IMG/VR virus record: IMGVR_UViG_3300011400_000010
Span: 1-41,981 of that record
Length of the DNA stretch: 41,981 nucleotides
Source of the DNA: a virus
Reading direction: 5' to 3' (one strand)
Of this stretch, positions 2,355 to 23,687 are shown in pieces; position 1 is the first letter of the stretch; each line of letters starts with the position of its first letter. The notes beneath the pieces are model-generated. The model was not told the origin of the DNA. It searched no databases and worked only from the letters and a program-made list of their open reading frames with translations. Made by a program: the position numbers and the translations under genes.

Positions 2355-4301
2355 GTGTCTAATCGCGCCTATTCCCTATTAGAACTGAAATCGGTTGACG
2401 ATGATCTTCGGACCATCGAAGGTATCGCCACGCATGTCTCACCGGACAGGACCGAGGACATCGTAGAGCCGAAAGGCGCTCTGTTCTCGTTGCCGGTGCC
2501 GTTCATGTGGCAGCACGGCAAGAACATGCCGGCTATCGGACACGTCACGCACGCGGCTGTGACGGACGAAGGCATCCGGGTCAAGGTGCAGATCGAAAGC
2601 GACGATCAGCCTGGACTCCTCAAGGATCATCTCGACCTTGCGTGGCGCTCCATCAAGAAGGGGCTCGTCCGAGGTCTGTCGATTGGCTTCCGACCGTTGG
2701 AGTCGGAGCAGATTAAAAACAGCTTCGGTGTGCATTTCAAGCGGTGGGAATGGCTCGAGCTTTCCGCCGTCACGATCCCGGCGCACCAGAACGCCTCTAT
2801 CACGCTCGTGAAATCCATTGACGCGCAGGATCTTGCCGAGACAGGCGAGGCCGCACGTCTACACACGCCGGGAGACACCGGCACTCGCGCCGTCCATTAC
2901 GGACAGCCGAAAGCACCGACCATGAAGACGTATTCAGAACAGATTCGCGATCTGGAAGCCACGATTGCGGGAAAGGCTGCGGAGCGCGAAGGCGTTCACA
3001 CCAAAGCCGTAGAAGAGGGCCGCTCGAAAGACGGCGACGAGCGAGACAGGTTCGACACGCTCGGCAAAGAGATCGAATCGCTCACGAAAGAACTCGCAGA
3101 CGCGAAGGAACTCGACGCGGTGAACATCACGAAGGCCGCTCCAGTCGTCGCCGGCACGTCGCAGCAGTCAGGCGCCTCGCGCCAGGGCATCGGCCATGTC
3201 TCCGTGAAGGAAAACATGCCGAAGGGTATCGGCTTTGCCCGAGCGGTCAAGGCGAAGGTTGTCGCCCGTATGGACAGCCGGAACGTGCATGACGTCGCGA
3301 AGGAGATGTATCCCTCGGATGACCGACTGCACGCCCATCTGAAGGCCGCAGTTCCCGCCGGCACGACCACGCAGGCCGTCTGGGCATTGCCGCTGGTCGA
3401 TCCGACCAATCTGGCGTCGGAGTTCATCGAATACCTCCGACCGGCAACCATCATCGGCAAGCTGAATCTGCGGAACGTCCCGTTCAACATCCGGGTCATC
3501 GAGCAGACGAACGGCGGCAACGGGTTCTGGGTCGGAGAAGGTCGCCCGAAGCCGCTGACCGCGTTCGGCTTTGCGCCGATCCTGTTGGCCTACACGAAGG
3601 TGGCGGCAATCTCGGTCATCACCGAGGAGCTGGCACGGTTCTCCACGCCATCGGCTGAAATGCTGGTGCGTGACGGCCTGCGGGATGCGCTGGTGGAGCG
3701 TATCGACCGGGACTTCATCGATCCTGCCGAAGCCGGCACAACCGGCGTGCAGCCAGCCTCGATCACGAACGGGCTCGTGGCGCTGACTTCGGCTGGCACG
3801 TCAGCCGACAACGCGAGAACCGATCTGGCGAATCTGATGTCAACCTTCGTTGAGGCGAACATCGATCCGACCGGCGTGGCGCTCATCATGCCGACCACGG
3901 CAGCACTCGCGCTGTCCTTCATGGTCAACAGCTTGGGTCAGCCCGAGTTCCCTGGCTTCGGCATGGGCGGTGGCAACATCAACGGCATCCCGGTCATCAC
4001 GTCGCAGTATGCGGCGAACGCCAGCGGTGGCGGCAACCTCGTCATTGCCCTGAATCAGCGAGAGATCTTCCTCGCGGATGATGGCTCGGTGACGGTGGAT
4101 GCCAGCCGCGAAGCCTCGTTGCAGATGTTGGACAATCCGACCAACAACTCGGCGGAAGCGACGGCGACGCAGATGGTGAGCATGTGGCAGACCAACAGCA
4201 TTGCGCTGAGGGCTGAGCGGTTCATCAACTGGAAGAAGCGCCGTGCTGACGCCGTCGTTTACATGGACGATGTCAACTGGGGCTCCATCGGCTCTCCGTA
4301 G
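2355..4301 (+). CDS. Fused HK97-type prohead protease and major capsid protein
   Basis: One 648-residue frame joins two proteins that are usually separate. Residues 1-155 are a prohead protease of the S78/HK97 gp4 type: IEGIATHVSPDRTEDIVEP, candidate catalytic H54 in WQHGKN, S109 in GLSIGF, and WLELSAVTIPA. Residues 190-245 form a charged helical scaffold (delta-like) domain, and about 270-648 are the HK97-fold capsid (TTQAVWALPLVD, IEYLRPATIIGK, FINWKKRRADAVVY). Translation starts at a GTG without a convincing Shine-Dalgarno site. An internal ATG at 2922 (residue 190, MKTYSEQIRDLE) looks exactly like a normal capsid start and would give a 459-residue capsid. Fusions of this type are known in some phages; whether both products are made is inference. 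Confidence 0.92.
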   Translation: MSNRAYSLLELKSVDDDLRTIEGIATHVSPDRTEDIVEPKGALFSLPVPFMWQHGKNMPAIGHVTHAAVTDEGIRVKVQIESDDQPGLLKDHLDLAWRSIKKGLVRGLSIGFRPLESEQIKNSFGVHFKRWEWLELSAVTIPAHQNASITLVKSIDAQDLAETGEAARLHTPGDTGTRAVHYGQPKAPTMKTYSEQIRDLEATIAGKAAEREGVHTKAVEEGRSKDGDERDRFDTLGKEIESLTKELADAKELDAVNITKAAPVVAGTSQQSGASRQGIGHVSVKENMPKGIGFARAVKAKVVARMDSRNVHDVAKEMYPSDDRLHAHLKAAVPAGTTTQAVWALPLVDPTNLASEFIEYLRPATIIGKLNLRNVPFNIRVIEQTNGGNGFWVGEGRPKPLTAFGFAPILLAYTKVAAISVITEELARFSTPSAEMLVRDGLRDALVERIDRDFIDPAEAGTTGVQPASITNGLVALTSAGTSADNARTDLANLMSTFVEANIDPTGVALIMPTTAALALSFMVNSLGQPEFPGFGMGGGNINGIPVITSQYAANASGGGNLVIALNQREIFLADDGSVTVDASREASLQMLDNPTNNSAEATATQMVSMWQTNSIALRAERFINWKKRRADAVVYMDDVNWGSIGSP

Positions 4302-4312
4302 TCGCTGAATAC

Positions 4313-4344
4313 CGGACGGCCATTCTTGCTGGGGTGGCCGTCCG
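4313..4344 (+). terminator. Hairpin after capsid gene
   Basis: CGGACGGCCA at 4313-4322 pairs perfectly with TGGCCGTCCG at 4335-4344 around a 12-base loop, followed by a pyrimidine-rich stretch (CTCTCTTTCTCT) without a clean U run. It lies 11 bases after the capsid stop. It may act as a partial terminator or as an mRNA 3-prime stabiliser that sets high capsid yield relative to downstream genes. Confidence 0.7.
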
Positions 4345-4365
4345 TCTCTCTTTCTCTGAGGTCTG

Positions 4366-4602
4366 ATGCCTGCTGTTACGGTCACTGCTATTAAGGACTT
4401 CACCGAAGACGGCATCCGAGGCCGTAAGGGTCAGATCCTCGTCATCGATCCTCCCATCAAGGCGCTCCTGCTGGCTCGCAAAGGGCTGGTGAGTCTCTGC
4501 AAGGTGAAGACTCGCGAGATGCCTCCTCCTGAACCGGAGCCAGAGCCCGAACCTGCGCCACGTAGGCGTTATCGAAGGCGAGACATGCAGGCGGAAGGCT
4601 AA
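4366..4602 (+). CDS. Small protein with Pro-Glu repeat and basic tail
   Basis: I do not recognise this 78-residue protein. The first 50 residues look like a small beta-rich domain (VTVTAIKDFTEDGIRGRKGQ), followed by a PEPEPEPEP spacer and an arginine-rich tail (RRRYRRRD). GAGG lies a few bases before the ATG. Small proteins between capsid and portal in HK97-like phages are often head-associated, and the basic tail could contact DNA or RNA, but neither is shown by the sequence. The 125 bases that follow, up to the portal start, hold no supported feature. Confidence 0.6.
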   Translation: MPAVTVTAIKDFTEDGIRGRKGQILVIDPPIKALLLARKGLVSLCKVKTREMPPPEPEPEPEPAPRRRYRRRDMQAEG

Positions 4603-4727
4603 TAATGCACCGATTTAGTCCGCCTATTCGGTGCCAGATAGGTGCAAGTTCCAGCGGAGACTGTAGGCGTGTTGCTTAGGGCCAATGACGTGTCTCGCGT
4701 TCTGGTTCTGGACATCAAAAGCGTAGC

Positions 4728-6113
4728 ATGAGACTCGGTCCCTACGACATCACCATTACTAAACGCGCACCGGCTAACCTGTCCTCGGTCGAAAGCCGGG
4801 GCGGCTGGTGGCCTGTTGTGCGCGAGCCGTTCAGCGGTGCGTGGCAGCAGAACCAGGAAGAAAGCGTCGAGACGGTTCTCGCCTTCTCCGCGACGTTCGC
4901 GTGCCTGACGCTGATCTGTTCGGACGTGTCGAAGATGCGCCTGCGGCTGGTGGAGCAGGACGCCAATACGATCTGGAATGAAGTGGAGTCGGCCTCGTTC
5001 TCGCCGTTCCTCCGCAAGCCGAATCGCTATCAGAACCGGATTCAATTCGTTTACTGGTGGCTGGCGTCGAAGCTGATTCACGGGAATACGTATGCGCTGA
5101 AGGCGCGTGACGCTCGAGGCGTGGTGCGTGCGGCCTACATCCTCGATCCGACGCGCACGCGCCCGATGGTGGCTCCTGACGGTTCGGTCTACTACGAACT
5201 GAAGACGGATAACCTGTCGAGCCTCATGACCGATATCGTCGTGCCGGCGTCTGAGATCTTTCACGACGTTGGCTATGCGCTGTTCCATCCGCTCGTGGGC
5301 GTGTCACCGATCTACGCCTGTGGCCTTGCGGCGGTGCAAGGGCTCCGCATCCAGAACAACTCGTCTCGATTCTTTGCGAATGGCAGTAAGCCGGGAGGCG
5401 TGCTGACGGCTCCTGGTGCGATCACGCCGGAAGCCGCGCAGCGGGTTAAAGCCTATTGGGACGAGAACTTTGTGGGCGACAACATGGGCAAAGTCGCCGT
5501 GCTCGGGGACGGGCTGAAATATGAAGCGATGGCCGTCACCGCGAACGATTCGCAACTGATCGAGCAGTTGAAGTGGACCGCCGAGAACGTCTGCACCGCG
5601 TTCCATGTGCCGGCGTATAAGGTCGGGATCGGCAATCCGCCTTCGTACAATAACGTGGAAGCCTTAGACCAGCAGTATTACTCGCAGTGCTTGCAGTTTC
5701 ACATCGAGAGCATGGAGCTGTGTCTCGATGAGGGGCTCGGGCTGTCGCCGGATAAGGTGGAAGGCCGCAGGCTCGGTGTCGAGTTCGATCTCGAGGACTT
5801 GCTCAGGATGGATACCGCGACACAGATCAAAGCCGAGAAGGACGCCGCTGGGATCAAGACCATCAACGAGTCACGGCAGCGTCTAAATCTGAAACCGATG
5901 ACCGGCGGCGATCAGGTCTATCTGCAGCACCAGGATCACAGCATTGAAGCCTTGGCGAAGCGCGACGAAGGTCCGGATCCGTTCGCGAGTGACAACAGCA
6001 AGGCTCCACAGCCAGCCGCGCAGCCTGAGCCTGCGCCTGTGGACGATACCGCGAAGGCTTACGCCGCGATTATGACCAAAGCCGCAGAGATTGCGAGACG
6101 CAATGCAGCCTGA
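4728..6113 (+). CDS. Portal protein, HK97 family
   Basis: The 461-residue protein should form the dodecameric ring at the capsid vertex through which DNA is packaged and ejected and on which the connector assembles. Family features include TFACLTLICSDVSKMRLRL near residues 56-74, the LRKPNRYQNRIQF segment, HGNTYALKARD, the LVGVSPIYACG segment before the stem helices, NGSKPGGVL, and GIKTINESRQRLNLKP near the C-terminus. The tail after residue 425 is proline- and alanine-rich and probably flexible. Length is normal. Unusually, portal follows capsid here, the reverse of the common portal-protease-capsid order. Confidence 0.93.
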   Translation: MRLGPYDITITKRAPANLSSVESRGGWWPVVREPFSGAWQQNQEESVETVLAFSATFACLTLICSDVSKMRLRLVEQDANTIWNEVESASFSPFLRKPNRYQNRIQFVYWWLASKLIHGNTYALKARDARGVVRAAYILDPTRTRPMVAPDGSVYYELKTDNLSSLMTDIVVPASEIFHDVGYALFHPLVGVSPIYACGLAAVQGLRIQNNSSRFFANGSKPGGVLTAPGAITPEAAQRVKAYWDENFVGDNMGKVAVLGDGLKYEAMAVTANDSQLIEQLKWTAENVCTAFHVPAYKVGIGNPPSYNNVEALDQQYYSQCLQFHIESMELCLDEGLGLSPDKVEGRRLGVEFDLEDLLRMDTATQIKAEKDAAGIKTINESRQRLNLKPMTGGDQVYLQHQDHSIEALAKRDEGPDPFASDNSKAPQPAAQPEPAPVDDTAKAYAAIMTKAAEIARRNAA

Positions 6114-6735
6114 TCAACTCGCCGAGATCGTCGGCGCAGCTATCGAAGCCGCAACGAATCCGCTCCTCGCACGGATTGCCGTGCTGGAGAAAGTGGCGTC
6201 TGTCGCCGGTAGGGATGGCCGCGACGGGCAATCTGTGCAAGGACCGCAGGGCCCTATTGGTCCGCAAGGGCCACAGGGCGAACGTGGGCCGGAAGGTTTA
6301 CCGGGCGCATCCATTCAAGGGCCAGCCGGCGAAAAGGGCTTAGACGGCAGAGATGGCGTCGATGGCCGGGACGGGCTGCACGGGATGGGCTTCGATGATC
6401 TGACCGTGACGTATGACGGTGAGCAGACCATCACGATGGTCTATGAGCGTGGCGTGCATCGCAAAGAGTTTCCGATCCATCTGCCGATCCCAGTGCATCG
6501 TGGCAAGTGGGATGCTGGCCGCGTCTACAAGATTGCTGAGGAAGTCATGTGGGCTGGTTCGACGTGGCGAGCCATCGAGGAGACGAAAGCGGAGCCAGGG
6601 ACGCCGGCTGCGGCCTCTCGTGCCTGGGTGATGGTGTCTCGGCGTGGCGATGTGGGCAAGACCGGACAGAAGGGCTTGGCCGGTGACCGTGGCGAGCGTG
6701 GGCCGGAAGGTCCGCGAGGACCGCAGGGTTACTGA
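6103..6735 (+). CDS. Collagen-like protein with carbohydrate-binding-like domain
   Basis: This 210-residue protein has a short N-terminal helix (LLARIAVLEKVASV), a run of Gly-X-Y triplets at about residues 38-85, a beta domain at about 100-175 containing KWDAGRVYKIAEEVMWAGST, and a second Gly-X-Y stretch to the end. The beta domain resembles the aromatic-rich CBM5/12-like modules that bind polysaccharides. Collagen-like triplets in phages usually form trimeric stalks of fibres or head decorations. It overlaps the end of portal and starts at an ATG inside that gene (an in-frame TTG at 6091 is possible). Its location in the head module suggests a capsid or neck fibre rather than a tail fibre. 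Confidence 0.8.
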   Translation: MQPDQLAEIVGAAIEAATNPLLARIAVLEKVASVAGRDGRDGQSVQGPQGPIGPQGPQGERGPEGLPGASIQGPAGEKGLDGRDGVDGRDGLHGMGFDDLTVTYDGEQTITMVYERGVHRKEFPIHLPIPVHRGKWDAGRVYKIAEEVMWAGSTWRAIEETKAEPGTPAAASRAWVMVSRRGDVGKTGQKGLAGDRGERGPEGPRGPQGY

Positions 6736-7100
6736 TGGTCTCGCCGCTCCCGTCCATCGTCACGCTGGCACAGGCCAAGAAGGCTGCGCGAATCGATCCG
6801 TCGAACTTTGAGGAAGATGCGGACCTGTATCTACGGTTAGAGATCGCGCACGAGGTCTGTCTGGACTACGTCAATAATCGCGTCGAAGATACCGATGATG
6901 TGTGGCTCGAGACGGTCCTGTCGTGGGATGAGGGCAATGCGCCGAGGCAAGTCAAGGCGGCTATCCTTGCCATGTTCGTCTACCTCACGCGGTTCCGGGG
7001 CGATGACGCCGAGAAGGATCGGCAAGTTCTGACCGACGGCGATATCCCTGATCACGTTCGGATGTATCTGAAGCGCCTCCGCGATCCCACCGTGGCCTGA
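6735..7100 (+). CDS. Head-tail connector, HK97 gp6-like
   Basis: The 121-residue product resembles the adaptor ring that docks under the portal. It has the predicted all-helical pattern of the family: SIVTLAQAKKAARID at the N-terminus, EDADLYLRLEIAHEVCLDYV, and the PRQVKAAILAMFVYLTRFRG helix. The ATG overlaps the stop of the collagen-like gene by one base (TGATG). In most relatives the head-closure gene follows directly; here nine unrelated enzyme genes intervene before it at 12665. Confidence 0.85.
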   Translation: MVSPLPSIVTLAQAKKAARIDPSNFEEDADLYLRLEIAHEVCLDYVNNRVEDTDDVWLETVLSWDEGNAPRQVKAAILAMFVYLTRFRGDDAEKDRQVLTDGDIPDHVRMYLKRLRDPTVA

Positions 7101-7102
7101 TC

Positions 7103-7852
7103 ATGCCTGCCAAGCCGCGCCCACGCATTTATGCCTCGGTGCCGAAACTCTGGCCGGGAGAAACGGTCGTCTGTATCGCCAGCGGTCCGTCGCTCACCGA
7201 AGCGGATGTGAACTACGTGCGCGGTCGGGCGCATGTCATCGCCATCAATAACAATTGGGAGCTGGCACCGTGGGCCGATGTACTCCACGCGAATGACGGG
7301 CGCTGGTGGCACTGGCATAAGGGCGTGCCGAGTTTTAAGGGGCTCAAGTATTCGCTCTCGCACTCGGCGCGGATGTGGCCGGATGTCAACGTCCTGCGGC
7401 GAGCCCATGACGCGAAGGGGATCTCGTTCGATCCGAAGGCACTCTGTAACTACGGCCTGAACTCTGGATACGCCGCGATCAATCTTGCGGTGCATCTCGG
7501 GGCGAAGCGCATCATCCTGCTTGGCTATGACATGCAAGTCGGGCCGAACAAAGAGGAGCATTGGCATAAGGATCACCGCAATCGGAGCCGGTCTGAGTAT
7601 CCGATCTTCCTGCGGCGATTCTCCGCGATGACTGAGCCGCTCGAGAAGGCCGGGATCGAAGTCATCAACTGCACACGCAGAACTGCGATTGAGACATTCC
7701 CGCTGATGTCACTGGAAGACGCTCTGCCGTTCATAGACATATCAGAGCATTTTGAGAATGCGCCTGATGTCGATCCGGTGGAAGCGTGTCAAGGATTGAT
7801 TAAGAAAGGCACTGGCCAAATGACAGGCGTGTGGAAACCGCAGGAGCTATGA
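7103..7852 (+). CDS. DUF115/MptE-like glycosyltransferase-type protein
   Basis: The 249-residue protein starts a run of nine sugar- and methyl-transfer genes. Its N-terminal WPGETVVCIASGPSLT resembles the glycine-rich nucleotide-binding loop of DUF115 proteins, a family that includes MptE-like pyrophosphokinases and Maf-type flagellin glycosylation proteins. IIAINNNW-like (VIAINNNWELAPWADVLHAND) and LGAKRIILLGYDMQVG segments are also typical. Phage members are common in structural operons, but their substrates are unknown. The context of four glycosyltransferase-like genes favours a part in building or attaching a glycan. The exact reaction cannot be assigned. Confidence 0.7.
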   Translation: MPAKPRPRIYASVPKLWPGETVVCIASGPSLTEADVNYVRGRAHVIAINNNWELAPWADVLHANDGRWWHWHKGVPSFKGLKYSLSHSARMWPDVNVLRRAHDAKGISFDPKALCNYGLNSGYAAINLAVHLGAKRIILLGYDMQVGPNKEEHWHKDHRNRSRSEYPIFLRRFSAMTEPLEKAGIEVINCTRRTAIETFPLMSLEDALPFIDISEHFENAPDVDPVEACQGLIKKGTGQMTGVWKPQEL

Positions 7853-8340
7853 GCCCTGAACGGAAGGCCAGTAACGCGCTCTTAAAGCGATGGGCTGCGA
7901 CCATCACCGGAGACGTGCTGTCTATTGGGAGTTCGACGGATCAGGACGGAGCCGAGAAGCACTACCGAGATTACTTCACGGCAGCGACGTCATATACGAC
8001 ATCAGAAGTCATGCCGGGATGCGATCTGGTGCTGGACGTGCGCTCTATGCCGACAGTGGCTGATGAAAGCTACGACGCGGTCTTTGTCAGTGGCGTGCTG
8101 GAGCACGTCGATGACCTCTGGGCTGCGGTGCGGGAGTGTTACCGGATCGTGAAGCGCGGCGGTCTGCTGCTGTTGGGTGTGCCGTTCCGTCAGAAGATCC
8201 ATAGGGCCCCGCAGGACTTCTGGCGGTTCACCGAATACGCCGTGCGGTATCTGCTGAAGGCCTGCGTCATTGAGGAACTCGTCACGATTGGCGATCCGCT
8301 CTCGCCTGCAGCCTATTGGGTGAAGGCGCGTCGTGCATGA
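7849..8340 (+). CDS. Class I SAM-dependent methyltransferase
   Basis: This 163-residue protein has the core of the Methyltransf_11 type: VLSIGSST as a modified motif I, CDLVLDVRSMPTVAD, then YDAVFVSGVLEHVDDLWAAV with the post-II LEHV signature, and RIVKRGGLLLLGVPF as the next strand. The ATG at 7849 overlaps the previous stop by four bases; an in-frame GTG at 7831 is a less likely start. It is shorter than many relatives and lacks an obvious substrate-binding domain. Co-translation with glycosyltransferase-like genes suggests a sugar or lipid-linked substrate rather than DNA; this is inference. Confidence 0.82.
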   Translation: MSPERKASNALLKRWAATITGDVLSIGSSTDQDGAEKHYRDYFTAATSYTTSEVMPGCDLVLDVRSMPTVADESYDAVFVSGVLEHVDDLWAAVRECYRIVKRGGLLLLGVPFRQKIHRAPQDFWRFTEYAVRYLLKACVIEELVTIGDPLSPAAYWVKARRA

Positions 8341-9044
8341 CCGAGATCGTGGTCACCAGCTTCTCGCCGGAAGGCGAAGCGCAATACGGCAAGCGCATGA
8401 CGCGGCAGTTTCGGAAGTATTGGCCGTGTCCACTGATCGTCTACGTGGATGGGCCGACGACGGTCAAGGGCTGCGGTTTGCTCAGGACGGCGGATATCCC
8501 TGGCTGGCTCGAGACGCGAGATCGATTACCAAAGATAGCGCCTGATATGGACTGGTATAAGCCGACAGGCTATCTGTGGAACGCAAAGCGGTTCGCGGTG
8601 AAGCCGTTCGTCTGGCTGGATGCGGCTGAACAGATGGGATCGGGCGTCTTGACGTGGCTCGATGGCGATACCGTGCTGGAATCGAAGGTGACGCCTGGAT
8701 GGACGGTGAAGTTACTCGGCAAGTCGGATGTGGCGTATCTCGGTCGAGGCAAGATGCATCCCGAGACGGGCTATGTGGGCTTCCGTATCCCTGAAGCGTT
8801 GCCGCTCCTGCGCTGGTGCCGGGATGCCTATCGAGACGAGACTTTTCGAGCCCTGACGAGCGGCTGGACGGATTGTCATGTGCTCAAGGCTGGCATGAAG
8901 GCGCTGAAGGTGAAGGCGCTGGATATGACTTCACATCTGCAGGAGCGGTGGACGTCGCAAGATGACGTGATGAGCCTGTCGCCAGTCGGACGATACGTGA
9001 GCCATCTGAAGGGCAGCGAACGGAAGCGTGAGGCGCATGCCTGA
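8337..9044 (+). CDS. GT-A-type glycosyltransferase-like protein (first of three)
   Basis: The 235-residue product reads as a small nucleotide-sugar transferase. A beta strand ending in LTWLDGDTV (residues 105-113) supplies a DxD metal-binding motif (D109, D111), and the N-terminal TEIVVTSFSPEGEAQYG and LIVYVDGP strands fit a GT-A fold. TSGWTDCHVL and TSHLQERWTSQDDVMS are conserved-looking later segments. The ATG overlaps the methyltransferase stop. It lacks membrane segments, so it should act in the cytoplasm. Acceptor and donor are unknown. Confidence 0.72.
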   Translation: MTEIVVTSFSPEGEAQYGKRMTRQFRKYWPCPLIVYVDGPTTVKGCGLLRTADIPGWLETRDRLPKIAPDMDWYKPTGYLWNAKRFAVKPFVWLDAAEQMGSGVLTWLDGDTVLESKVTPGWTVKLLGKSDVAYLGRGKMHPETGYVGFRIPEALPLLRWCRDAYRDETFRALTSGWTDCHVLKAGMKALKVKALDMTSHLQERWTSQDDVMSLSPVGRYVSHLKGSERKREAHA

Positions 9045-9757
9045 TGCTGTCTATCGTGACGTTCAAGTGGAAGCCACAGGCGAACAACTACCGCTCCAGC
9101 TACGATGCGGCGACCGTCAATACGCTCTTCAGCATGGTGGATCGGCACTATCTTCTGCCGCACCGAAACATCTGCGTGACGGACGAGCCGAAAGGGATTC
9201 ACAGCAGCATCGAGATCGTGCCGATGTGGGACGATTATGCGAACGTGCAGAATCCAAGCGGCTCGCACAATCCGAGCTGCTACCGCCGGCTGAAGCTCTT
9301 TGCGCCGGATGCCGGGAAGATCTTTGGCGAGCGGCTCGTGGCTATCGACCTGGACGTGGTTATCGTGAAGGATCTGACGCCACTATTCAGCCGCACCGAC
9401 GACTTCGTGATCTGGGGTTACAGCGACTTCCCAAAGACGCAGTTCTACAACGGCTCACTCTGGATGCTGAAGACCGGCTCGAGGACGAAGGTGTGGACGC
9501 AGTTCAATCCGATGACCTCGCCGCGACTGGCGCACCGCAAGGGCTGTCGGGGATCGGATCAGGGCTGGCTCAGTTACATCATTCCCGGCGAAGCCGCGTG
9601 GGGCACGCGGGACGGGATCTACTCGCATCGCGTGCATATCTCCAAAAACGGCTGGCGACTGCCAGAGGATGCGCGAGTCGTGGTCTTTCACGGCAAGCAC
9701 GATCCGTGGAGTTATCACTCGCAGCAGATCGACTGGATACGGGAGCACTACCGCTAA
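9044..9757 (+). CDS. GT-A-type glycosyltransferase-like protein (second of three)
   Basis: The 237-residue protein resembles GT8-like transferases: FAPDAGKIFGERLVAIDLDVVIVKDLTPLF contains the DLD metal-binding motif at residues 102-104, GSDQGWLSYI is the second acidic motif, and the C-terminal VVVFHGKHDPW supplies a histidine commonly seen near the active site in this class. Start and stop overlap both neighbours by one base. An overlapping open frame on the same strand covers this whole gene, but only its later part is coding (see the FkbM gene at 9757). Confidence 0.78.
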   Translation: MLSIVTFKWKPQANNYRSSYDAATVNTLFSMVDRHYLLPHRNICVTDEPKGIHSSIEIVPMWDDYANVQNPSGSHNPSCYRRLKLFAPDAGKIFGERLVAIDLDVVIVKDLTPLFSRTDDFVIWGYSDFPKTQFYNGSLWMLKTGSRTKVWTQFNPMTSPRLAHRKGCRGSDQGWLSYIIPGEAAWGTRDGIYSHRVHISKNGWRLPEDARVVVFHGKHDPWSYHSQQIDWIREHYR

Positions 9758-10389
9758 TGGGCCGGAAGTGGCGCTGGGAATTGTTTCAGGGCTCGCGTTA
9801 TATGCTCGGCCTGATGAAGCGTGACATTCATTATGTGGATGACGCGGTAACGTATTGCCGTGGCCGTCAGGCGTGCGTGCAGGCTGGCGGGAATCTGGGG
9901 ATCTATCCGAAGCGGCTGGCGAGTTACTTTCGGACGGTCTACACGTTCGAGCCTGCCTCGGACCTGTGGCCGATGCTGCTGCACAATGCGCCAGAGTCGA
10001 ACATCGTGAAGATGCAGGCGGCACTCGGTGACGAGCGCAGACTAATCAAGGTGTCTCGAGAACGGCGTGACGGCAAACCGAATGCCCACGAGGGTATCGG
10101 CTATACCGTGCCGAATGGAACGATCCCGACGCTGCGCGTTGACGATCTGAATCTGCCGGTCTGCGATCTGCTCTATCTGGACATCGAAGGCGGTGAGCTG
10201 CCGGCGTTACGCGGAGCCGTCGAAACGCTATTCCGGTGTCGGCCCGTTGTGGTCTGCGAGATCAATAAGAGCCTCGGCTTTGTCGGCCTGACGGCGGCGG
10301 ATGTGATTGGCTGGCTGGATGGTCAGGGCTATCGGCACGCGAAGACGATGGGCTCGGATCAGATCTTTGTGCCGAAGGAATGGGAATGA
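9757..10389 (+). CDS. FkbM-like methyltransferase
   Basis: This 210-residue protein carries the FkbM-type signature: ACVQAGGNLGIYPKRLASYF as motif I, VYTFEPASDLWPML with the EP pair after strand 2, and CDLLYLDIEGGELPALRGA, the DIEG motif of the family. FkbM enzymes usually O-methylate sugars or polyketides. The frame stays open upstream to 9028, but that part is out of frame with a good gene, and the ATG at 9757 overlaps the preceding stop as TAATG, so I start there. Together with the two other methyltransferases it suggests a methylated glycan product. Confidence 0.85.
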   Translation: MGRKWRWELFQGSRYMLGLMKRDIHYVDDAVTYCRGRQACVQAGGNLGIYPKRLASYFRTVYTFEPASDLWPMLLHNAPESNIVKMQAALGDERRLIKVSRERRDGKPNAHEGIGYTVPNGTIPTLRVDDLNLPVCDLLYLDIEGGELPALRGAVETLFRCRPVVVCEINKSLGFVGLTAADVIGWLDGQGYRHAKTMGSDQIFVPKEWE

Positions 10390-11111
10390 AACTCGCCACA
10401 GCGACAGCCACTGCCGAGGACTATCAGCGCATCTTCGACCTGGAGCGGCAGCAGTCGTATCCGATGGTGGATGCGCTCGAGCAGCGCATGGGCTTCACGG
10501 TAGATCGAGAGCGGCTGGAAGCGGCTGCGCGTGTGCTGGCCTGTCCGCTCAAGGATGCGGCTCCCTGCTGGCAGCATGGTCGCGTGCTGTATACGGCTGT
10601 GAGGAACTACTTAGCGACTACTACAGAGGAGTGTGTTCGCACGTTGGACATCGGAACCGCGAAGGGATTCTCTGCGCTTGTAGTAGTGATGGCGGCTGAT
10701 GATGCAGAGTTTCCTGCTGAAGTGTTCTCAGTGGATGTCCTCCCGCCATCAGCGCGTGTCAGGCGCAACACTGTGGCGGAAGTGGATGGGCTCAAGACGC
10801 TGGCGGAGATCCTGGCTCCGTGGCCGGAAGCGTCCCGCATCACGTTTCTAGAATCGACCGGCATCGACTGGCTGAAGGCGCATCCTGAGCGCATCCATAT
10901 TGCCTTCGTAGACGGCAAGCACTCCGGGTCGGTCGTGCGTCAGGAAGGTGTGCTCCTCGCGCAGCGCCAGCAGACAGGGGATCTCTGCATCTTCGACGAC
11001 GTGCATATCGGTGAGGTATCGGTAGCCGTTACGTCGCTGCACCACGAATACAAACTGGAGTATCTGCAGGTGCTCCCGAAGCGAGCCTATGCGATTGGAG
11101 TCAGGCGATGA
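10386..11111 (+). CDS. Class I SAM-dependent methyltransferase (Methyltransf_24-like)
   Basis: The 241-residue protein contains VRTLDIGTAKGFSALVVVMA (motif I), VFSVDVLPPSARVR (strand 2 acid), a short helical insert, then RIHIAFVDGKHSGSVVRQEG and DLCIFDDVHIG. The FVDGxHS-type motif is characteristic of Methyltransf_24 enzymes, which include cephalosporin hydroxylase-like and sugar-modifying proteins. Two in-frame ATGs exist at 10380 and 10386; AAGGA at 10375-10379 sits six bases before the second, which also gives an ATGA overlap, so I prefer it. Substrate unknown. Confidence 0.8.
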   Translation: MKLATATATAEDYQRIFDLERQQSYPMVDALEQRMGFTVDRERLEAAARVLACPLKDAAPCWQHGRVLYTAVRNYLATTTEECVRTLDIGTAKGFSALVVVMAADDAEFPAEVFSVDVLPPSARVRRNTVAEVDGLKTLAEILAPWPEASRITFLESTGIDWLKAHPERIHIAFVDGKHSGSVVRQEGVLLAQRQQTGDLCIFDDVHIGEVSVAVTSLHHEYKLEYLQVLPKRAYAIGVRR

Positions 11112-11269
11112 ATCCAGTGATCCAAGTCTGTGTCGTTATCCTCGGGCTGTTTGTGATCTATCTCGTGCTCGGTCTATTGCACATCACTGAGCCGTCGCGG
11201 TCGGTGGTGCTGGCGCTGTCGGTCGTGCTCGGGATCTTGTATCTGCTCGGACTGCCGCCGTTCCGATGA
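11108..11269 (+). CDS. Small two-segment membrane protein in glycan cassette
   Basis: This 53-residue ORF has two hydrophobic stretches, about residues 4-25 (VIQVCVVILGLFVIYLVLGLL) and 33-50 (VVLALSVVLGILYLLGL), separated by a polar turn HITEPSRS. It overlaps both neighbours with ATGA junctions, which strongly supports translation despite its size. A membrane hairpin among glycosyltransferases could anchor a complex or help flip a lipid-linked sugar; it could also be an unrelated small phage membrane protein. I do not recognise a family. Confidence 0.65.
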   Translation: MNPVIQVCVVILGLFVIYLVLGLLHITEPSRSVVLALSVVLGILYLLGLPPFR

Positions 11270-11904
11270 CGGTCGCCTGTGTATGGGTCAACGGGCATCT
11301 GCCGTTTCCGGTGCATTACGTGACGCGGCTGCGGTCGATGGTATCGAAGCACTTCCAGCGGGCGCATCGGTTTGTGTGCCTCACCGACAACGGCTATCAG
11401 TTGCCGGGGATAGACACAATGGCTGTGGCGACACCGTTTGTTGGGGTGAAGGGCTGGTGGTCAAAGATTCATCTCTTCGATCCGGGCCGGTTTACCGGGA
11501 GAGTCTTGTATCTTGATCTGGACACGCTGATCGTGGATGCGCTCGAGCCGATTGTGGACTACCCGTCACCGTTCGCGCTGATCCCTGACTCTGGCAGCTG
11601 GCGAGGGCGAGGGCGTTTAGGTGTCTGCAAGCGGTTTAATAGTTCGGTGATGGTCTGGGATGCCGGCGTGAATGATCTCTTGTCGAAGAACTGGACGCCG
11701 TCCGTGATGAATCGGATGTGGGGCGATCAGGATTGGATCGGGCAGCAGATGCCTCGGGCGGATCGGTTGCCGCTCGAATGGTTCCCGCGTATCTCGGAGT
11801 GCAAGGACGGAGTGCCCGAAGGCGCGAAGGTGATCTTGGCGAAGATCCCGAAGAACGAGAAGGCGGCAAAGATCTATCCCTGGTTTGCGGAGGCGTGGAA
11901 TTGA
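11266..11904 (+). CDS. GT-A-type glycosyltransferase-like protein (third of three)
   Basis: The 212-residue protein resembles the one at 9044: RVLYLDLDTLIVDALEPI has the DLD motif at residues 84-86, NSSVMVWDAG is the segment facing the sugar, and WGDQDWIGQQM is the second acidic motif. WWSKIHLFDPGRF precedes the DxD strand as in that gene. The pair probably arose by duplication, though sequence identity looks low by eye. Cytoplasmic. The end overlaps the GT2 gene by one base (TGATG). Confidence 0.78.
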   Translation: MTVACVWVNGHLPFPVHYVTRLRSMVSKHFQRAHRFVCLTDNGYQLPGIDTMAVATPFVGVKGWWSKIHLFDPGRFTGRVLYLDLDTLIVDALEPIVDYPSPFALIPDSGSWRGRGRLGVCKRFNSSVMVWDAGVNDLLSKNWTPSVMNRMWGDQDWIGQQMPRADRLPLEWFPRISECKDGVPEGAKVILAKIPKNEKAAKIYPWFAEAWN

Positions 11905-12674
11905 TGGGCAAGCTCTGGTGCGCGGGATTCCCCATCGTGGAGATGGCACGGCGCGACATGCCGAAGCCGCTGACGGTGATCGTGCCGTATTACGAGAACT
12001 CAAGGTTTCTGTCGAGGCAACTAGATCATTGGCTCACACTGCGACTGTCTGCTGACGTTGCTTCTAATCTTAAAGTTATCGTAGTTGACGATGGCTCACC
12101 GAACAGATCCGCCGAGGAAGTGCTCAGAGGCCGAGCGCAGGACTTCATTCGCCTGTTCCGGTTGCACGACGACATCCGCTGGAACTGGCTCGCGGCTCGG
12201 AACATCGGCTTCCATCATGCACCGGACGGCTGGTGCCTTGTCACCGACATGGATCACATGATTCCAGAAGCCACGCTACGGAGCGTGATCTACAGTGAGC
12301 ATGATCCTAACGTGATCTATGCCTTCCGTCGCTTCGATGTGCGCGGAGGGGATGCGCCGGTCGAGATCGCACCGCATCCGAACTCTTGGCTGATGACACG
12401 CTCGATGTTCTGGAAGGTTGGCGGCTACGATGAAGCATTATCTGGGCACTACGGAACAGACGGAGAATATCGCAGGCGGTGCGCGAAGGTTGCGCCCATC
12501 GAGATCCTGACGGATGCGTTACATCGCTACGAGTATCAGGATGATTCATCGACTACGCGCTATCTGCGGAAGCAGCCGGAAGATGCCGGCGTGAAGCAGA
12601 TCGTGGCGGCGAGGCGGAAGGGCTGGCGTCCGAAGACGCTGAGTTTTCCGTATGAGGAAGTGTCGTGTCTGTAG
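11904..12674 (+). CDS. Family 2 glycosyltransferase
   Basis: This 256-residue protein shows the clearest sugar-transferase signature of the cassette: TVIVPYYENSRFLSRQL at the N-terminus, KVIVVDDGS at residues 58-65 for nucleotide binding, WCLVTDMDHMIP with DMD at 115-117 as the metal motif, and GGYDEALSGHYGTDGEYRRR as the acceptor-site acidic segment typical of GT2. The open frame extends upstream to 11718, but the ATG at 11904 overlaps the previous stop. Its own stop overlaps the head-closure gene, so the cassette is translationally tied to the virion operon at its 3-prime end. Confidence 0.87.
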   Translation: MGKLWCAGFPIVEMARRDMPKPLTVIVPYYENSRFLSRQLDHWLTLRLSADVASNLKVIVVDDGSPNRSAEEVLRGRAQDFIRLFRLHDDIRWNWLAARNIGFHHAPDGWCLVTDMDHMIPEATLRSVIYSEHDPNVIYAFRRFDVRGGDAPVEIAPHPNSWLMTRSMFWKVGGYDEALSGHYGTDGEYRRRCAKVAPIEILTDALHRYEYQDDSSTTRYLRKQPEDAGVKQIVAARRKGWRPKTLSFPYEEVSCL

Positions 12675-13021
12675 CCTCTGGCGAGCGTAGTCACCGCATC
12701 ACCTTGCATGCACCGGAAGGCACGCGGGGCGATGGCACGGCGCAGGATATCGCCACGCGCATTCCGGCGAAGATTGCTCCTGTGCCGCTGGCCTTCCAGC
12801 AGCAGGAGCGTCTAGCGGCTGGTGGCCTGACGCGGCAGACGCTGTATTCCATCAACATCCGGTATCGGGCCGACGTCGATTCCGACCTCGTGCTGATTGA
12901 GGAATGCCACACGCAGCGCGAGTTCCAGATCCTGACGATGATCCCATCTGACAAGATGGACGAGATCGATCTGACGTGCATCGTAGGGAATCGGCCCGTA
13001 GCCGAGGAGGATCTGGGCTAA
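12665..13021 (+). CDS. Head closure protein (SPP1 gp16-like)
   Basis: The 118-residue protein matches the Phage_H_T_join family: GERSHRITLHAPEGTRGDGT at the N-terminus, the VPLAFQQQERLAAGGLTRQTLYSINIRYRADV strand pair and FQILTMIPSDKMDEIDLTCIV at the end. It should seal the head beneath the gp6-like ring before tail attachment. It starts at a GTG with GAGGAAG at 12654-12660 just upstream. In related phages this gene follows the gp6-like gene directly; the separation here by 5.6 kb is the clearest sign that the enzyme cassette was inserted. Confidence 0.82.
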   Translation: MSVASGERSHRITLHAPEGTRGDGTAQDIATRIPAKIAPVPLAFQQQERLAAGGLTRQTLYSINIRYRADVDSDLVLIEECHTQREFQILTMIPSDKMDEIDLTCIVGNRPVAEEDLG

Positions 13022-13479
13022 TGCCTTACGAGCTTGTGACGCCGAATCTCCAGGCCGCAATCATTGCGCTGCTCGAGGCGGACTCCGCGCTGACCAGCAT
13101 CATCCAGACGAAGCCGACAGCGAAGGGCGGCGGTCCTGCGATCTATGACGAAGGGGATGTGCCGCTCGGGCAGTTGTTTCCTTACATCACCATTGGCGCA
13201 TGGACGCAGACGCCGAATCACACCTTTTCTCCGAGTGGTGACGGCTGGTGCTGGAACTGCACCGTGCAGATCAAAGCCTTCAGCCAGCGCGTCGAGAAGA
13301 CACCGGAAGTCATCAGTGCCGTGCTGGCCGTGCTCGAGCAGGGCACGTCGTTGCTGGTGTCCTTCTATGCCTCGGCGTGGATCGATGAGGTGAATGTGCA
13401 GCCGATGTTCAAAGAGACGCTGGCCGGCGTGACGACCTATCAGCTACCGGTGATCGTCCGGGTGTATGCCGGTGATTAA
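13021..13479 (+). CDS. Tail terminator / tail completion protein (DUF3168-like)
   Basis: This 152-residue protein fits the DUF3168 tail-terminator family: LQAAIIALLEADSALTSII helix, FPYITIGAWTQTPNHTFS, CTVQIKAFSQRVEKTPEVISAVLAVLEQG and YQLPVIVRVYA at the C-terminus. It should cap the growing tail tube and join it to the head. The ATG overlaps the head-closure stop by one base (TAATG). The frame is open 45 bases further upstream, but within the preceding gene. Confidence 0.78.
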   Translation: MPYELVTPNLQAAIIALLEADSALTSIIQTKPTAKGGGPAIYDEGDVPLGQLFPYITIGAWTQTPNHTFSPSGDGWCWNCTVQIKAFSQRVEKTPEVISAVLAVLEQGTSLLVSFYASAWIDEVNVQPMFKETLAGVTTYQLPVIVRVYAGD

Positions 13480-13675
13480 CGTCAGGCTGACGCAGCTCTA
13501 TTCCCTTCGGGCCCAGGTGGACGCCTTGATTGCGCTGGAGGAAGTCGCGGTGCAGGCGGTGCAGGAGGCGCTCGGGTGCCAGCATCCCGAGGAGCGGCGG
13601 CAGAGCGTGGCGACGTTCGGTAATCCGAAGCGGTTCAAGTGCCTTGCGTGCGGTGAGACGCTGGAGTCCGCATGA
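13466..13675 (+). CDS. Small zinc-ribbon-like protein
   Basis: The 69-residue product has an N-terminal helix (LRAQVDALIALEEVAVQAVQ) followed by a cysteine/histidine cluster: CQH, then about 21 residues later CLAC, which could bind one zinc ion. Similar small proteins occur in many phages without a known role. It overlaps the tail terminator by 14 bases, and a GTG two codons downstream of the ATG is an alternative start. Confidence 0.65.
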   Translation: MPVINVRLTQLYSLRAQVDALIALEEVAVQAVQEALGCQHPEERRQSVATFGNPKRFKCLACGETLESA

Positions 13676-13911
13676 CACCGGCGACCGTCCATCTGATCGC
13701 GCAGGAGATCCGCTTTATGCGCGGGACGCTGACGGCGAAGGAGAAATGGGTGAGTAGTTTACCGCCCAGTCAGGCTACAATAGACTTCGCTCGCTACATA
13801 GAGTTCTGGCGTGACTTCATCGCGGAAGTCGAGCAGCGCATGGCCGCGTCTGGCGATGTCAAAACATGGGCCGCTGATCGTCACGCAAACGCTCGGGCAC
13901 GACCTCGATAG
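13672..13911 (+). CDS. Hypothetical small protein
   Basis: The 79-residue protein is not recognised. It is predicted helical (FMRGTLTAKEKWVSSL, YIEFWRDFIAEVEQRMA) with a basic C-terminus. The ATGA overlap with the zinc-ribbon-like gene supports translation. It ends where a repeat-bearing leader for the tail tube begins. Confidence 0.55.
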   Translation: MTPATVHLIAQEIRFMRGTLTAKEKWVSSLPPSQATIDFARYIEFWRDFIAEVEQRMAASGDVKTWAADRHANARARPR

Positions 13912-13946
13912 GGTTACTGGCTACTGGTTCTGGTTAGGGTTACTGG
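13909..13946 (+). repeat. Direct repeat in tail-tube leader
   Basis: TAGGGTTACTGG occurs at 13909-13920 and 13935-13946, with partial copies (CTACTGG, TTCTGG) between, so the stretch reads as a degenerate 6-7 base repeat. It begins at the stop codon of the preceding gene and lies in the roughly 120-base leader of the tail-tube gene. Confidence 0.6.
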
Positions 13947-14006
13947 TTCGAGGCTGTAGACATACCTCGCACGTCTCTGAACGTGCCGCGCATGTGCTGA
14001 AGATGC

Positions 14007-14022
14007 CTCCTTTACGAAGGAG
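14007..14022 (+). promoter_or_regulatory. Hairpin masking the tail-tube ribosome binding site
   Basis: CTCCTT at 14007-14012 pairs perfectly with AAGGAG at 14017-14022 around a UACG tetraloop (a UNCG-class loop). AAGGAG is the strong Shine-Dalgarno site for the GTG at 14031, with an eight-base spacer, so the stem would hide the ribosome binding site of the tail-tube gene. This could delay or tune translation of a very abundant protein. Confidence 0.6.
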
Positions 14023-14030
14023 TGTGTCTT

Positions 14031-14483
14031 GTGAAGCATCCTGCGATTAAAACTCGGTTCCTGCTGGACAATGCGGCTGGAACGCTTACCGACATCTCGA
14101 CGTGGCTGACTGCCGTGAACGGCTCGGGCTCCACCGACTTCCTCGATGCGACGACCTTCCAGCCTGACGCGGTGGGATCGGCACTGAAGGATGAGATCCC
14201 GAGCTTCAGCGCGAAGGCGTATGCGCTGTCCGGGATGTGGTCGGAAGACGTCGAGACGTTCTTCTCAGCCATCGAAGGCGAGCAGAATCTGGAGTTCCAG
14301 TATCTGCCGGACGATCCCAACATGAACTCGATGATCCACGGCACCTGTTCCTGTGGCAGCTACAGCGGCCCACAGTCGGAAGTCAACGGGCTGGTGACGT
14401 TCGATGCCGAGCTGCGTGTGCAGACGAAATACTTCCAGGTGGGTTCGGCGGGTTCGCCGGTCGGCGCATCGCCTGGCATCTAA
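14031..14483 (+). CDS. Major tail tube protein
   Basis: The 150-residue protein has the composition and strand pattern of small siphovirus tube subunits: KTRFLLDNAAGTLTDISTWL, GSTDFLDATTFQPDAVG, then SAKAYALSGMWSEDVETFFSAI and VNGLVTFDAELRVQTKYFQVG near the C-terminus. It should polymerise around the tape measure. I start at GTG 14031, which has AAGGAG eight bases upstream; an in-frame GTG at 14022 overlaps that site. Position between tail terminator and the frameshifted chaperone genes agrees with the role. The gene is bracketed by a hairpin at its ribosome binding site and hairpins after its stop. Confidence 0.82.
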   Translation: MKHPAIKTRFLLDNAAGTLTDISTWLTAVNGSGSTDFLDATTFQPDAVGSALKDEIPSFSAKAYALSGMWSEDVETFFSAIEGEQNLEFQYLPDDPNMNSMIHGTCSCGSYSGPQSEVNGLVTFDAELRVQTKYFQVGSAGSPVGASPGI

Positions 14484-14492
14484 GCCAGAAAC

Positions 14493-14510
14493 CTCGCGCC
14501 TATACGCGAG
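14493..14510 (+). other. Stem-loop after tail-tube gene
   Basis: CTCGCG (14493-14498) pairs with CGCGAG (14505-14510) around the six-base loop CCTATA, nine bases after the tail-tube stop. It is the first of two stem-loops in this 84-base gap. Confidence 0.5.
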
Positions 14511-14527
14511 CGGAATGTCACCAACAC

Positions 14528-14550
14528 AGGCCGGCGATAGGAGCCGGCCT
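14528..14550 (+). terminator. Terminator-like hairpin before chaperone gene
   Basis: AGGCCGGC (14528-14535) pairs perfectly with GCCGGCCT (14543-14550) around a seven-base loop, followed by CTCTT. With no clear U run it may be a leaky terminator, lowering expression of the chaperone and tape measure relative to the tube. Confidence 0.6.
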
Positions 14551-14567
14551 CTCTTGGAAGGTGCTCA

Positions 14568-14912
14568 GTGATTCAGATCGACTTCGACAAGCCGCGTCAT
14601 TTGCACTTCGATCTCGCAGCCGTGCGGGATCTGGAGGCGTCTCTTAACGGCAAACCTCTCGCGTCCATCATCAACGATCTGGCGCAGCTCGGCGTGAATG
14701 CTCTGGTTATGTCACTGTGGGCTGGCCTCAAACACGAGGACCGCACGCTCAATCCGAAGCTGGTCGAGCGGATGCTGGACCGTTACATCAAGGACAAAAA
14801 AAGCCTCCGTAAGATTGGACGGGCGCTGAACGATGCGCTTGATGAGACGGGCATGTTCCGCAACGAGGACGAGGAGACGGAGGGAAACGCGCAGACGGCG
14901 GTCGCGAATTAG
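14568..14912 (+). CDS. Tail assembly chaperone G-like protein
   Basis: This 114-residue protein is the unshifted product of the tail chaperone pair. It is mostly helical (FDLAAVRDLEASLNGK, LAQLGVNALVMSLWAGL, LVERMLDRYI) with an acidic tail EDEETEG, as in other G-type proteins that coat the tape measure during tube assembly. It starts at a GTG with GGAAGG a few bases upstream. Six codons before the last coding codon is a perfect -1 slippery heptamer, so some ribosomes extend it into the next frame. Confidence 0.85.
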   Translation: MIQIDFDKPRHLHFDLAAVRDLEASLNGKPLASIINDLAQLGVNALVMSLWAGLKHEDRTLNPKLVERMLDRYIKDKKSLRKIGRALNDALDETGMFRNEDEETEGNAQTAVAN

Positions 14913-15178
14913 CACCGCCAGATGTTCGGACATGGTTGAAGTGGGCTGAAGAAGTCGGCCTAGGCGAGATGGCGCTCATGCCGTGGCAGTTCTGGCGTCT
15001 GACGTTTCGTGAGTTTCAGATCAAGCATGCGGCTTTTACCAGGGAAGAAGATCGACGCCGAAGCCTGATGTTGGAACAAGTCTCCTTGCTCGGTCAGTTC
15101 AAAGAGAAGGACCGTAACGCGATCAGGAGATCCGTCAATGTGCTGCGGAGGTATCCGGTGAAGGTATGGCTAAAGTAA
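14568..15178 (+). CDS. Tail assembly chaperone GT-like fusion made by -1 frameshift
   Basis: Slippage at the G-GGA-AAC site would join residue 107 of the G-like protein to 96 residues read in the -1 frame, beginning RADGGRELAPPDVRTWLKW and ending YPVKVWLK, giving 203 residues. The -1 frame has no good start of its own: it opens at 14846, its first usable codon is a TTG at 14936, and the region upstream (PPDVRTWLKWAEEVG) is clearly coding-like. The T-like part is helical and contains PWQFWRLTFREFQIKHAAF, typical of this domain. The pair is a conserved feature of lambda-like tails; the shift itself has not been measured here. Confidence 0.82.
14882..14919 (+). promoter_or_regulatory. Programmed -1 ribosomal frameshift signal
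   Basis: The heptamer GGGAAAC at 14882-14888 is in the correct phase (G GGA AAC in the G frame). Eight bases later GGCGGT (14897-14902) pairs with ACCGCC (14914-14919) across an 11-base loop, forming a GC-rich stem at the usual distance for stimulating slippage. Lambda uses the close relative GGGAAAG for its G/GT pair. Confidence 0.85.
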
Positions 15179-15558
15179 CGATGAAGATCGAAGGGATGGA
15201 AGCCTTACAGCGCGTGCTGGTGAGTGCTCCTGATGTCGTGCGCTCGAAAGGCGTGGACGTGATCAACGTCACGTCGTTCGCCATGGCGCAACGGGCGAAG
15301 TCCTTAGTCGCAGTCAATACCGGCACACTCAAGAGCAGCATTGAAGCGAAGCGCACCGTGACAAGTCTAAGTGGTGGCATCGGGATCAATACTCGCGAGA
15401 CGTTCTATTGGCGCTTCCTGGAATTCGGCACGGTTCATATGTCGGCACGTCCGTTTATTCGTCCTGCGGCAGAGGCAGAGCAGAACGCGTATATCGAACG
15501 CTGGCAGGCGCTAGGTCGAAACCTCGAGCGTGATCTCTCTGTGAGCAGGTTCCTATAG
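15166..15558 (+). CDS. HK97 gp10-like neck/tail protein
   Basis: The 130-residue protein matches the HK97_gp10 family: MEALQRVLVSAPDVVRSKG, AQRAKSLVAVNTGTLKSSI and YWRFLEFGTVHMSARPFIRPA, the last being the family hallmark. These proteins act at the head-tail joint or early tail. It normally lies between the head-closure and tail-terminator genes; here it sits after the chaperones and just before the tape measure, overlapping the T-like frame by 13 bases. Confidence 0.85.
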   Translation: MAKVTMKIEGMEALQRVLVSAPDVVRSKGVDVINVTSFAMAQRAKSLVAVNTGTLKSSIEAKRTVTSLSGGIGINTRETFYWRFLEFGTVHMSARPFIRPAAEAEQNAYIERWQALGRNLERDLSVSRFL

Positions 15559-23303: not shown

Positions 23304-23687
23304 ATGCATAAGCTGGCCGGTGTCCATCCTGAACTCGCTGAGAAGATCCTGCGGATACTGGCCGCGATGGAAGTGCTCGGCTTCGAGATGATGGTCACCG
23401 ATGGCGTGCGAACGACCGGCCAGCAGCAGGCACTCTATGCACAGGGCCGGACGAAGCCGGGAAAGATCGTCACGCAACTCGATGGCGTGACGAGGCGATC
23501 CAATCATCAGACGAAGGCTGACGGCTTCGGCCATGCCGTAGACTGCTGCTTCGTGGTGGCTGGCGTGCCGTCGTGGGGCCCAGCGTTACCGTGGGGCTTA
23601 TACGGGGCGATGGCGCAGACGCTCGGGCTAACCTGGGGCGGTGCGTGGGTGAACTTCAAGGATAAGCCGCATGTGGAGATGAAGTGA
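23304..23687 (+). CDS. M15 family peptidoglycan peptidase (endolysin)
   Basis: The 127-residue enzyme resembles phage L-alanyl-D-glutamate-type peptidases. The zinc ligands are visible as H68 in RSNHQ, D80 in GHAVDC and H123 in KPHVEM, with E125 as the likely general base. FEMMVTDGVRTTGQQQALYAQGR is the usual N-terminal region of the domain. No separate wall-binding domain or signal peptide is present, so it depends on a holin for access to the wall. It starts one codon boundary after the preceding stop and runs into a GTGA junction. Confidence 0.9.
   Translation: MHKLAGVHPELAEKILRILAAMEVLGFEMMVTDGVRTTGQQQALYAQGRTKPGKIVTQLDGVTRRSNHQTKADGFGHAVDCCFVVAGVPSWGPALPWGLYGAMAQTLGLTWGGAWVNFKDKPHVEMK

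Follow-up and report, generated by a model that had tools for sequence, protein, structure and literature searches.

A predicted virion-glycosylation cassette between the connector and head-closure genes of an HK97-like phage

The question raised by this locus is what nine genes for sugar and methyl transfer are doing among the genes that join a phage head to its tail. The window (the whole stretch of DNA analyzed) is a 41,981-base virus record, IMG/VR IMGVR_UViG_3300011400_000010, with an HK97-like backbone: terminase large subunit (TerL), fused protease-capsid, portal, collagen-like protein, head-tail connector Ad1 (gp6-like), nine open reading frames (ORFs), head closure Hc1, tail terminator, major tail protein and tape measure. 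The nine ORFs, g1 to g9 (7103-12674), are co-directional and mostly overlapping, and comprise five sugar-adding enzymes, three methyltransferases and one tiny hydrophobic ORF. It is probable, in our judgment, that they form an accessory cytoplasmic glycosylation island that transfers an O-methylated oligosaccharide, made from host donors, onto a virion protein. An earlier sequence-only reading of this DNA had offered either a virion component or the host surface as the target; the first of these is the best-supported reading, and the second is held to be less likely.

The anchor gene g1 and the other cassette enzymes

The anchor gene of this and related cassettes is g1 (7103..7852; all genes of the cassette and its flanks are on the + strand), which encodes a DUF115/Maf-like, GT42-like glycosyltransferase. 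It matched PHROG 4603 with an E value of 4e-48, and that family bears the label alpha-2,3-sialyltransferase. The sequence-only reading had called for structure prediction and a fold search; the AlphaFold2 model of g1 had a predicted local distance difference test score (pLDDT) of 89, and its search against the Protein Data Bank (PDB) gave only two matches below 0.001, the Magnetospirillum Maf glycosyltransferase 5mu5 (E 7e-6, query template-modelling score 0.54) and CstII, 1ro8 (E 4e-5). The predicted structure of g1 is thus of the Maf type. A place for g1 in GT42 is tentative: the motif order GxGPSL ... SG..A...LG ... GxD is common to g1 and CstII, and the sequence E value is only 0.06-0.09. 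Maf enzymes O-glycosylate flagellin at Ser/Thr with nonulosonic acids (PMC11339370).

Four further ORFs are predicted to add sugars. The products of g4 (9044..9757) and g8 (11266..11904) are GT-A-like glycosyltransferases that matched PHROG 1962 with E values of 9e-16 and 4e-16, respectively; g8 is a relative of PmgQ of phage P1 (pairwise comparison: E 3e-16, 28% identity), and searches of PDB sequences with g4 gave no matches. The third GT-A-like protein, g3 (8337..9044), matched no library family. Its relatives in three cassettes of other viruses are 46-53% identical, and a distant relative in the podovirus phage ct7QV12 adjoins genes for a tibC-like glycosyltransferase and a methyltransferase; the DxD alignment of g3 with g4 and g8 was weak, and a g3 model built without relatives was unusable (pLDDT 33). 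The DxD metal-binding motif is invariant both among the g3 relatives (LDGDTV in g3) and in the alignment of the PHROG 1962 type, g4 and g8 (alignment A8; D84 and D86 in g4). Finally, g9 (11904..12674) encodes a GT2 enzyme (Pfam Glycos_transf_2, E 3e-11) with invariant VDDGSP and TD-x-DH motifs (alignment A9).

The three methyltransferases belong to different families. The g2 product (7849..8340) is S-adenosylmethionine-dependent and matched Pfam Methyltransf_11 (E 7e-12); g5 (9757..10389) is of the FkbM type (Pfam Methyltransf_21, E 2e-14; PHROG 8156, E 4e-29; alignment A10); and g6 (10380..11111) matched Methyltransf_24 (E 2e-9) and has an invariant D-x-GTAKGFS motif (alignment A3). No relatives of g6 were found in phage records. 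Family scans and alignments thus recovered all of the enzyme families named earlier from the letters, namely one DUF115-like protein, three GT-A-like transferases, a GT2 enzyme and three methyltransferases, one of them FkbM-like. By their sequence families these are the enzymes of a stepwise-built, methylated glycan.

The remaining ORF, g7 (11108..11269), is uncertain as a gene. Its 53 amino acids include two hydrophobic segments (two 19-residue windows with hydropathy above 2.2), and it is strongly hydrophobic; its status as a gene is unproven, as a search found no relatives. Codon usage in the annotated frame fitted the phage core for eight of the nine ORFs and gave no discrimination for g7.

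All nine ORFs lie where the sequence-only reading had placed them, with corrected starts: the likely ones are 7103 (g1), 7849 (g2), 8337 (g3), 9044 (g4), 9757 (g5), 10380 (g6), 11108 (g7), 11266 (g8) and 11904 (g9). The stop-start chaining that it described runs throughout the cassette, with overlaps of 1, 4 or 10 bases between successive genes and of 10 bases between g9 and Hc1; the sole gap is the 2 bases between Ad1 and g1. The flanking genes had family matches that were weak yet significant, Ad1 (6735..7100) to PHROG 40 (E 4e-5, with hidden Markov model relatives at the same place) and Hc1 (12665..13021) to PHROG 25 (E 2e-4). These place the cassette, as had been proposed, in the head-tail operon between a gp6-like connector and head closure. 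Late expression is predicted solely from this operon.

The same site in relatives, named phages and bacterial chromosomes

A portal profile was used to collect 80 loci from each of two sources, bacterial genomes and viral contigs, and these were joined to earlier loci. The Ad1-Hc1 interval was compared in the 61 loci in which both genes were recognized, with less than 150 bp taken as adjacent and 500 bp or more as an insert. The two genes were adjacent in 37 of the 61, so the claim that they adjoin each other in relatives is true for most. Inserts of at least 500 bp were present in 17 of the 61, and in 13 of the 17 the insert includes families of this cassette. At least 17 changes of carrier state were required by parsimony on the portal tree (110 rows), which indicates an accessory trait subject to gain or loss.

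A second sample of 87 loci was picked largely by g1 instead of the portal and includes some near copies of one virus. Head genes lie upstream in 75 of the 87 and head-tail genes downstream in 66, and no locus (0/87) has cassette genes on the opposite strand. The g5-g6-g8-g9 module is present in 12/87. The order g1..g4-g5-g6-g8-g9-Hc1 recurs in L129, L189/L243 and L261/L263/L264; g5-g6-g8-g9 is also found in L010, L011, L013 and L014, and L033 is similar. Three loci (L251, L253 and L283) have g2 and g3 without g6 and g8, and their g2 relatives are 62-66% identical to that of the window. Because the g4-g9 order is common to some loci, and g2 and g3 to others that lack g6 and g8, the gene content of the window set looks like a mosaic of two modules. 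We conclude that the cassette is a modular, variable insert of which the DUF115/Maf-like gene is a near-constant member. The unrecognized ORFs of other cassettes likewise proved to be sugar or methyl enzymes: among 67 of them, 11 matched Methyltransf_24, and GT9, GT8, GT-D, GT-B, hexapeptide transferase and radical SAM/B12 matches were also found. The strongest evidence that g1, a methyltransferase and g4 would act together is a predicted 703-aa fusion at L229:1669-3777 (+), on a contig from a bacterial genome, in which a g1-like domain, a methyltransferase and a g4-like glycosyltransferase form one polypeptide; Hc1 follows directly.

Smaller homologous sets are present in named phages. D3, PAJU2 and Psp6 (Detrevirus and relatives) have, in the same head-tail region, a g1 relative (the DUF115/'alpha-2,3-sialyltransferase' gene), an ORF without known family and a neighboring methyltransferase gene; the depositors labeled the PAJU2 g1 relative 'structural protein', a label for which the record gives no experimental basis. 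In the late operon pmgO-pmgP-ppp-pmgQ of P1 (L195:4078-6636), pmgO, a DUF115-type gene whose product is 28% identical to g1, and the PHROG 1962 glycosyltransferase gene pmgQ flank pmgP and the serine/threonine phosphatase gene ppp. A CRISPR interference survey of P1 scored pmgO, pmgP and pmgQ as non-essential (PMC10695390), as is expected of pmgO and pmgQ if they serve decoration and not assembly. These sets are smaller than that of the window (three to four genes); their annotations go no further than hypothetical, structural or putative morphogenetic proteins, and searchable papers propose no pathway for them. A paper on the D3 capsid (PMC12749128) contains no words starting with 'glyc', which neither supports nor excludes glycans.

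A large set is found in 'Tetraselmis virus' S20 (Tetraselmis viridis virus), which like the window has GT2, FkbM and other methyltransferase genes, two DUF115 genes, and a g4 relative that is the last gene of the set, directly before Hc1. It differs in lacking g6, in its order, and in its separate portal, protease and capsid genes (a D3-like head module); no published interpretation of it was found. The sequence-only reading had not recognized the set as a described system; its arrangement is not unique, as D3, PAJU2, Psp6, P1 and phiNP have homologous smaller cassettes among their late or head-tail genes, and the S20 cassette is large.

Bacterial chromosomes were checked in 397 genomes from the bacterial order of one carrier. 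Strong g1 matches occurred in six places, of which one is a known prophage of Rhizobium albus (L075) and four (L226-L229, with L209/L228 counted among them) are among phage head genes. The sixth (L230) has flanks too short to judge, its contig being 3.2 kb long, and one further match could not be judged either. Long bacterial proteins matched g1 weakly, as Maf proteins would. Relatives of g6 were found in two chromosomes with no phage genes recognized nearby; in one of them (L225:6072-10174) the g6-like methyltransferase gene lies beside genes for a GT2 enzyme, an ABC transporter and a HAD hydrolase, possibly a cluster for cellular glycan export with a relative of the phage enzyme. No chromosomal nine-gene set was seen among these genomes. 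The nine genes were thus not found as a host pathway, which the sequence-only reading had named as an outcome that would count against it, and strong matches lay among phage head genes wherever the flanks sufficed. Together, the chromosomal g6 relatives and the phage-borne g1 places suggest that single enzymes came from cellular glycan pathways and that the set is phage-borne.

Proposed function, acceptor and competing explanations

We propose the following pathway, of which the acceptor class (a virion protein), the sequence of steps and the advantage to the phage are our inference. The nine genes would be translated together with those for head-tail joining. Within the cytoplasm of an infected cell, g1, being Maf/GT42-like, would probably form the sugar-protein linkage, or a key sugar-sugar linkage, on a virion protein; g3, g4, g8 and g9 (GT-A and GT2) would extend the chain using host nucleotide-sugars; and g2, g5 and g6 would methylate the sugars using host S-adenosylmethionine. 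The product would be particles that bear a short O-methylated oligosaccharide. Through module swapping at this site, related phages would come to have different coats, which could alter, for example, adsorption, stability or recognition.

Scans of the window, the cassette and the 67 ORFs of other cassettes found no genes for nucleotide-sugar synthesis, flippase or lipid-carrier export, polymerase or transporter. Their absence suggests that the donors come from the host and that the acceptor is cytoplasmic. In view of the operon location, the Maf-like fold, and the precedents in mycobacteriophages, chloroviruses and Mimivirus, the simplest choice is a virion protein, and we consider a virion component the likely acceptor.

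Virion glycosylation by phages is already known, and the cassette would be a variant of it, not a new kind of system; the features found here are encoded glycosyltransferases (PHROG 1962, GT2 and DUF115-like) and their association with structural genes. PMC11256854, citing Freeman et al. 2023 (PMID 37329881), describes capsid glycans in the mycobacteriophages Che8 and Rita. As described there, these phages and their relatives resemble the window in being temperate siphophages with phage-encoded glycosyltransferases, and the glycan is on virion structural proteins. They differ in that the cluster F1 glycosyltransferase genes are near the right (3') genome end and the glycans are experimentally shown, whereas the window is known from genes alone and has a multi-gene set with three methyltransferases inside the head-tail operon. 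Bacterial flagellin islands of the Maf/GT42 type share a Maf-like transferase, cytoplasmic O-glycosylation, and accompanying glycosyltransferases and methyltransferases; g1, however, is short and single-domain (249 aa versus about 630 in 5mu5), and the window lacks flagellin and nonulosonic-acid synthesis genes. Eukaryotic viruses with unrelated capsids offer further parallels (PMC4691112): A064R of chlorovirus is a fusion of a GT-A domain and an O-methyltransferase, and L230 of Mimivirus adds glucose to collagen-like proteins; virus-encoded glycosyltransferases, glycosyltransferase-methyltransferase fusions, and capsid or collagen-like acceptors are points of likeness. Substrate supply in those viruses is host-independent (PMC4691112), whereas no gene for such supply was found here.

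One candidate acceptor is the collagen-like protein (6106..6735), which has a tail-fibre-like C-terminal half (Pfam Collagen, E 7e-11; PHROG tail fibre matches) and 24 Gly-X-Y triplets by regular-expression count. Such triplets are commoner in the protein encoded between portal and Ad1 in loci with cassettes than in the other loci (median 25 versus 4, p 2e-5 on raw counts). Ser/Thr enrichment in the capsid or collagen protein of carriers was also considered and rejected, as the difference was not significant.

Several observations weigh against virion glycosylation. The link between triplets and cassette was not significant after control for relatedness (11 independent pairs), and no collagen-like hit was obtained in D3, Psp6 or S20; on these grounds a collagen-like protein was rejected as the obligatory acceptor. 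In phiNP, L043 and L151 the g1 homologue is upstream of terminase or portal genes, away from the Ad1-Hc1 site. The whole g1 protein scored 25.6 bits against Pfam PF01973 (MptE-like/DUF115), under the curated cut-off of 34.6, and a g1 profile from 52 relatives reached CstII among PDB sequences only weakly, with the E values given above. The non-essential score of the P1 genes fits other roles too, g7, if a real membrane protein, is superfluous to a cytoplasmic pathway, and a glycan on any cassette-bearing phage is a prediction from genes alone.

Among the alternatives, modification of the host surface survives best, although we consider it unlikely. During lysogeny or late in infection, the enzymes would alter an envelope glycan such as lipopolysaccharide or capsule, blocking superinfection or the re-adsorption of progeny to debris. 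Phages often carry glycosyltransferase genes that change O-antigen, a chromosomal g6 relative lies beside GT2 and ABC transporter genes, and g7 may be a membrane protein. However, nearly all g1-bearing loci keep the place and orientation of the head-tail operon, the top structural match of g1 is a protein O-glycosyltransferase, and an envelope change made in the final minutes before lysis could hardly take effect. The flippase family that, with a bactoprenol glucosyltransferase, marks lysogenic O-antigen conversion of the gtrABC type was absent from scans of the cassette and the rest of the window, as were polymerase, O-acetylase and transporter families.

Still less probable is the late modification of a host protein (flagellin or pili) or of a small metabolite, with the operon place being merely a tolerant insertion site. 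Flagellin glycosyltransferases have the Maf-like fold predicted for g1, and inserts are tolerated at head-tail junctions; but the tight translational overlap on both sides and the recurrence of glycan enzymes at this one site are more in keeping with a role in the virion, and late timing would leave little benefit. Hypermodification of phage DNA with sugar and methyl groups on a base, as a defense against restriction, is very improbable: glycosylated DNA bases are known in phages and the window has a C5-cytosine DNA methyltransferase gene (31623-32858, +), but this gene is without a TET/JBP-type partner in the window, neither TET/JBP dioxygenase nor other base-hydroxylating or pyrimidine-synthesis families were found among the 59 window proteins (Pfam, E 1e-3), the known DNA glycosyltransferases are not among the cassette families, and the cassette travels with head-tail genes and not with replication genes.

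Returning to virion glycosylation, a broader version of it can be advanced tentatively, at somewhat less than even odds: a widespread modular system, nucleated by the Maf/GT42-like enzyme at the junction of connector and head closure, would place lineage-specific O-methylated oligosaccharides on HK97-like particles, and the genes D3 orf7, orf12 and orf13 and P1 pmgO-pmgQ, which have long gone unexplained, would be reduced members of it. If virion glycosylation is the right reading, glycosylated particles would extend beyond mycobacteriophages, many proteobacterial siphophages would encode them within their structural operon, and coat chemistry would vary among close relatives. The 'putative morphogenetic' genes of P1 and D3 would gain a function that can be tested, and standard laboratory phages would allow the study of adsorption, stability and antibody recognition that depend on glycans.

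Other features of the window

The backbone was further marked by the portal gene (4728..6113; PHROG 2271, E 3e-130) and the tail terminator gene (13018..13479; PHROG 176, E 9e-6). Bases 1-25000 of the window had no nucleotide similarity to phage records. No sigma-70-like promoter was found in a scan of 4300-15600. On the + strand of the same interval, one strong terminator-like site (with a shorter overlapping call) was found just behind the capsid gene; the others were weak, including one within the end of g9 (12624-12641). Neither scan is evidence of transcription. The strong stem-loop behind the capsid gene (4313-4344, +) has 14 pairs, 9 of them G-C, is followed by a T-rich stretch and may limit transcription into the portal-connector-cassette part.

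At the left end, the ORF preceding TerL (55-492, +) matched PHROG 226, a family labeled 'minor tail protein'; the position of the ORF points instead to a small terminase, and the label may be wrong. An HNH endonuclease gene lies at the right end (41547-41903). HNH endonuclease and terminase genes adjoin in many phages, and the record may be a near-complete genome cut between them. Directly behind an endolysin-like gene (23304-23687) is a gene for a peptidase-like protein (23684-24412, +; PHROG 16701, E 5e-27).

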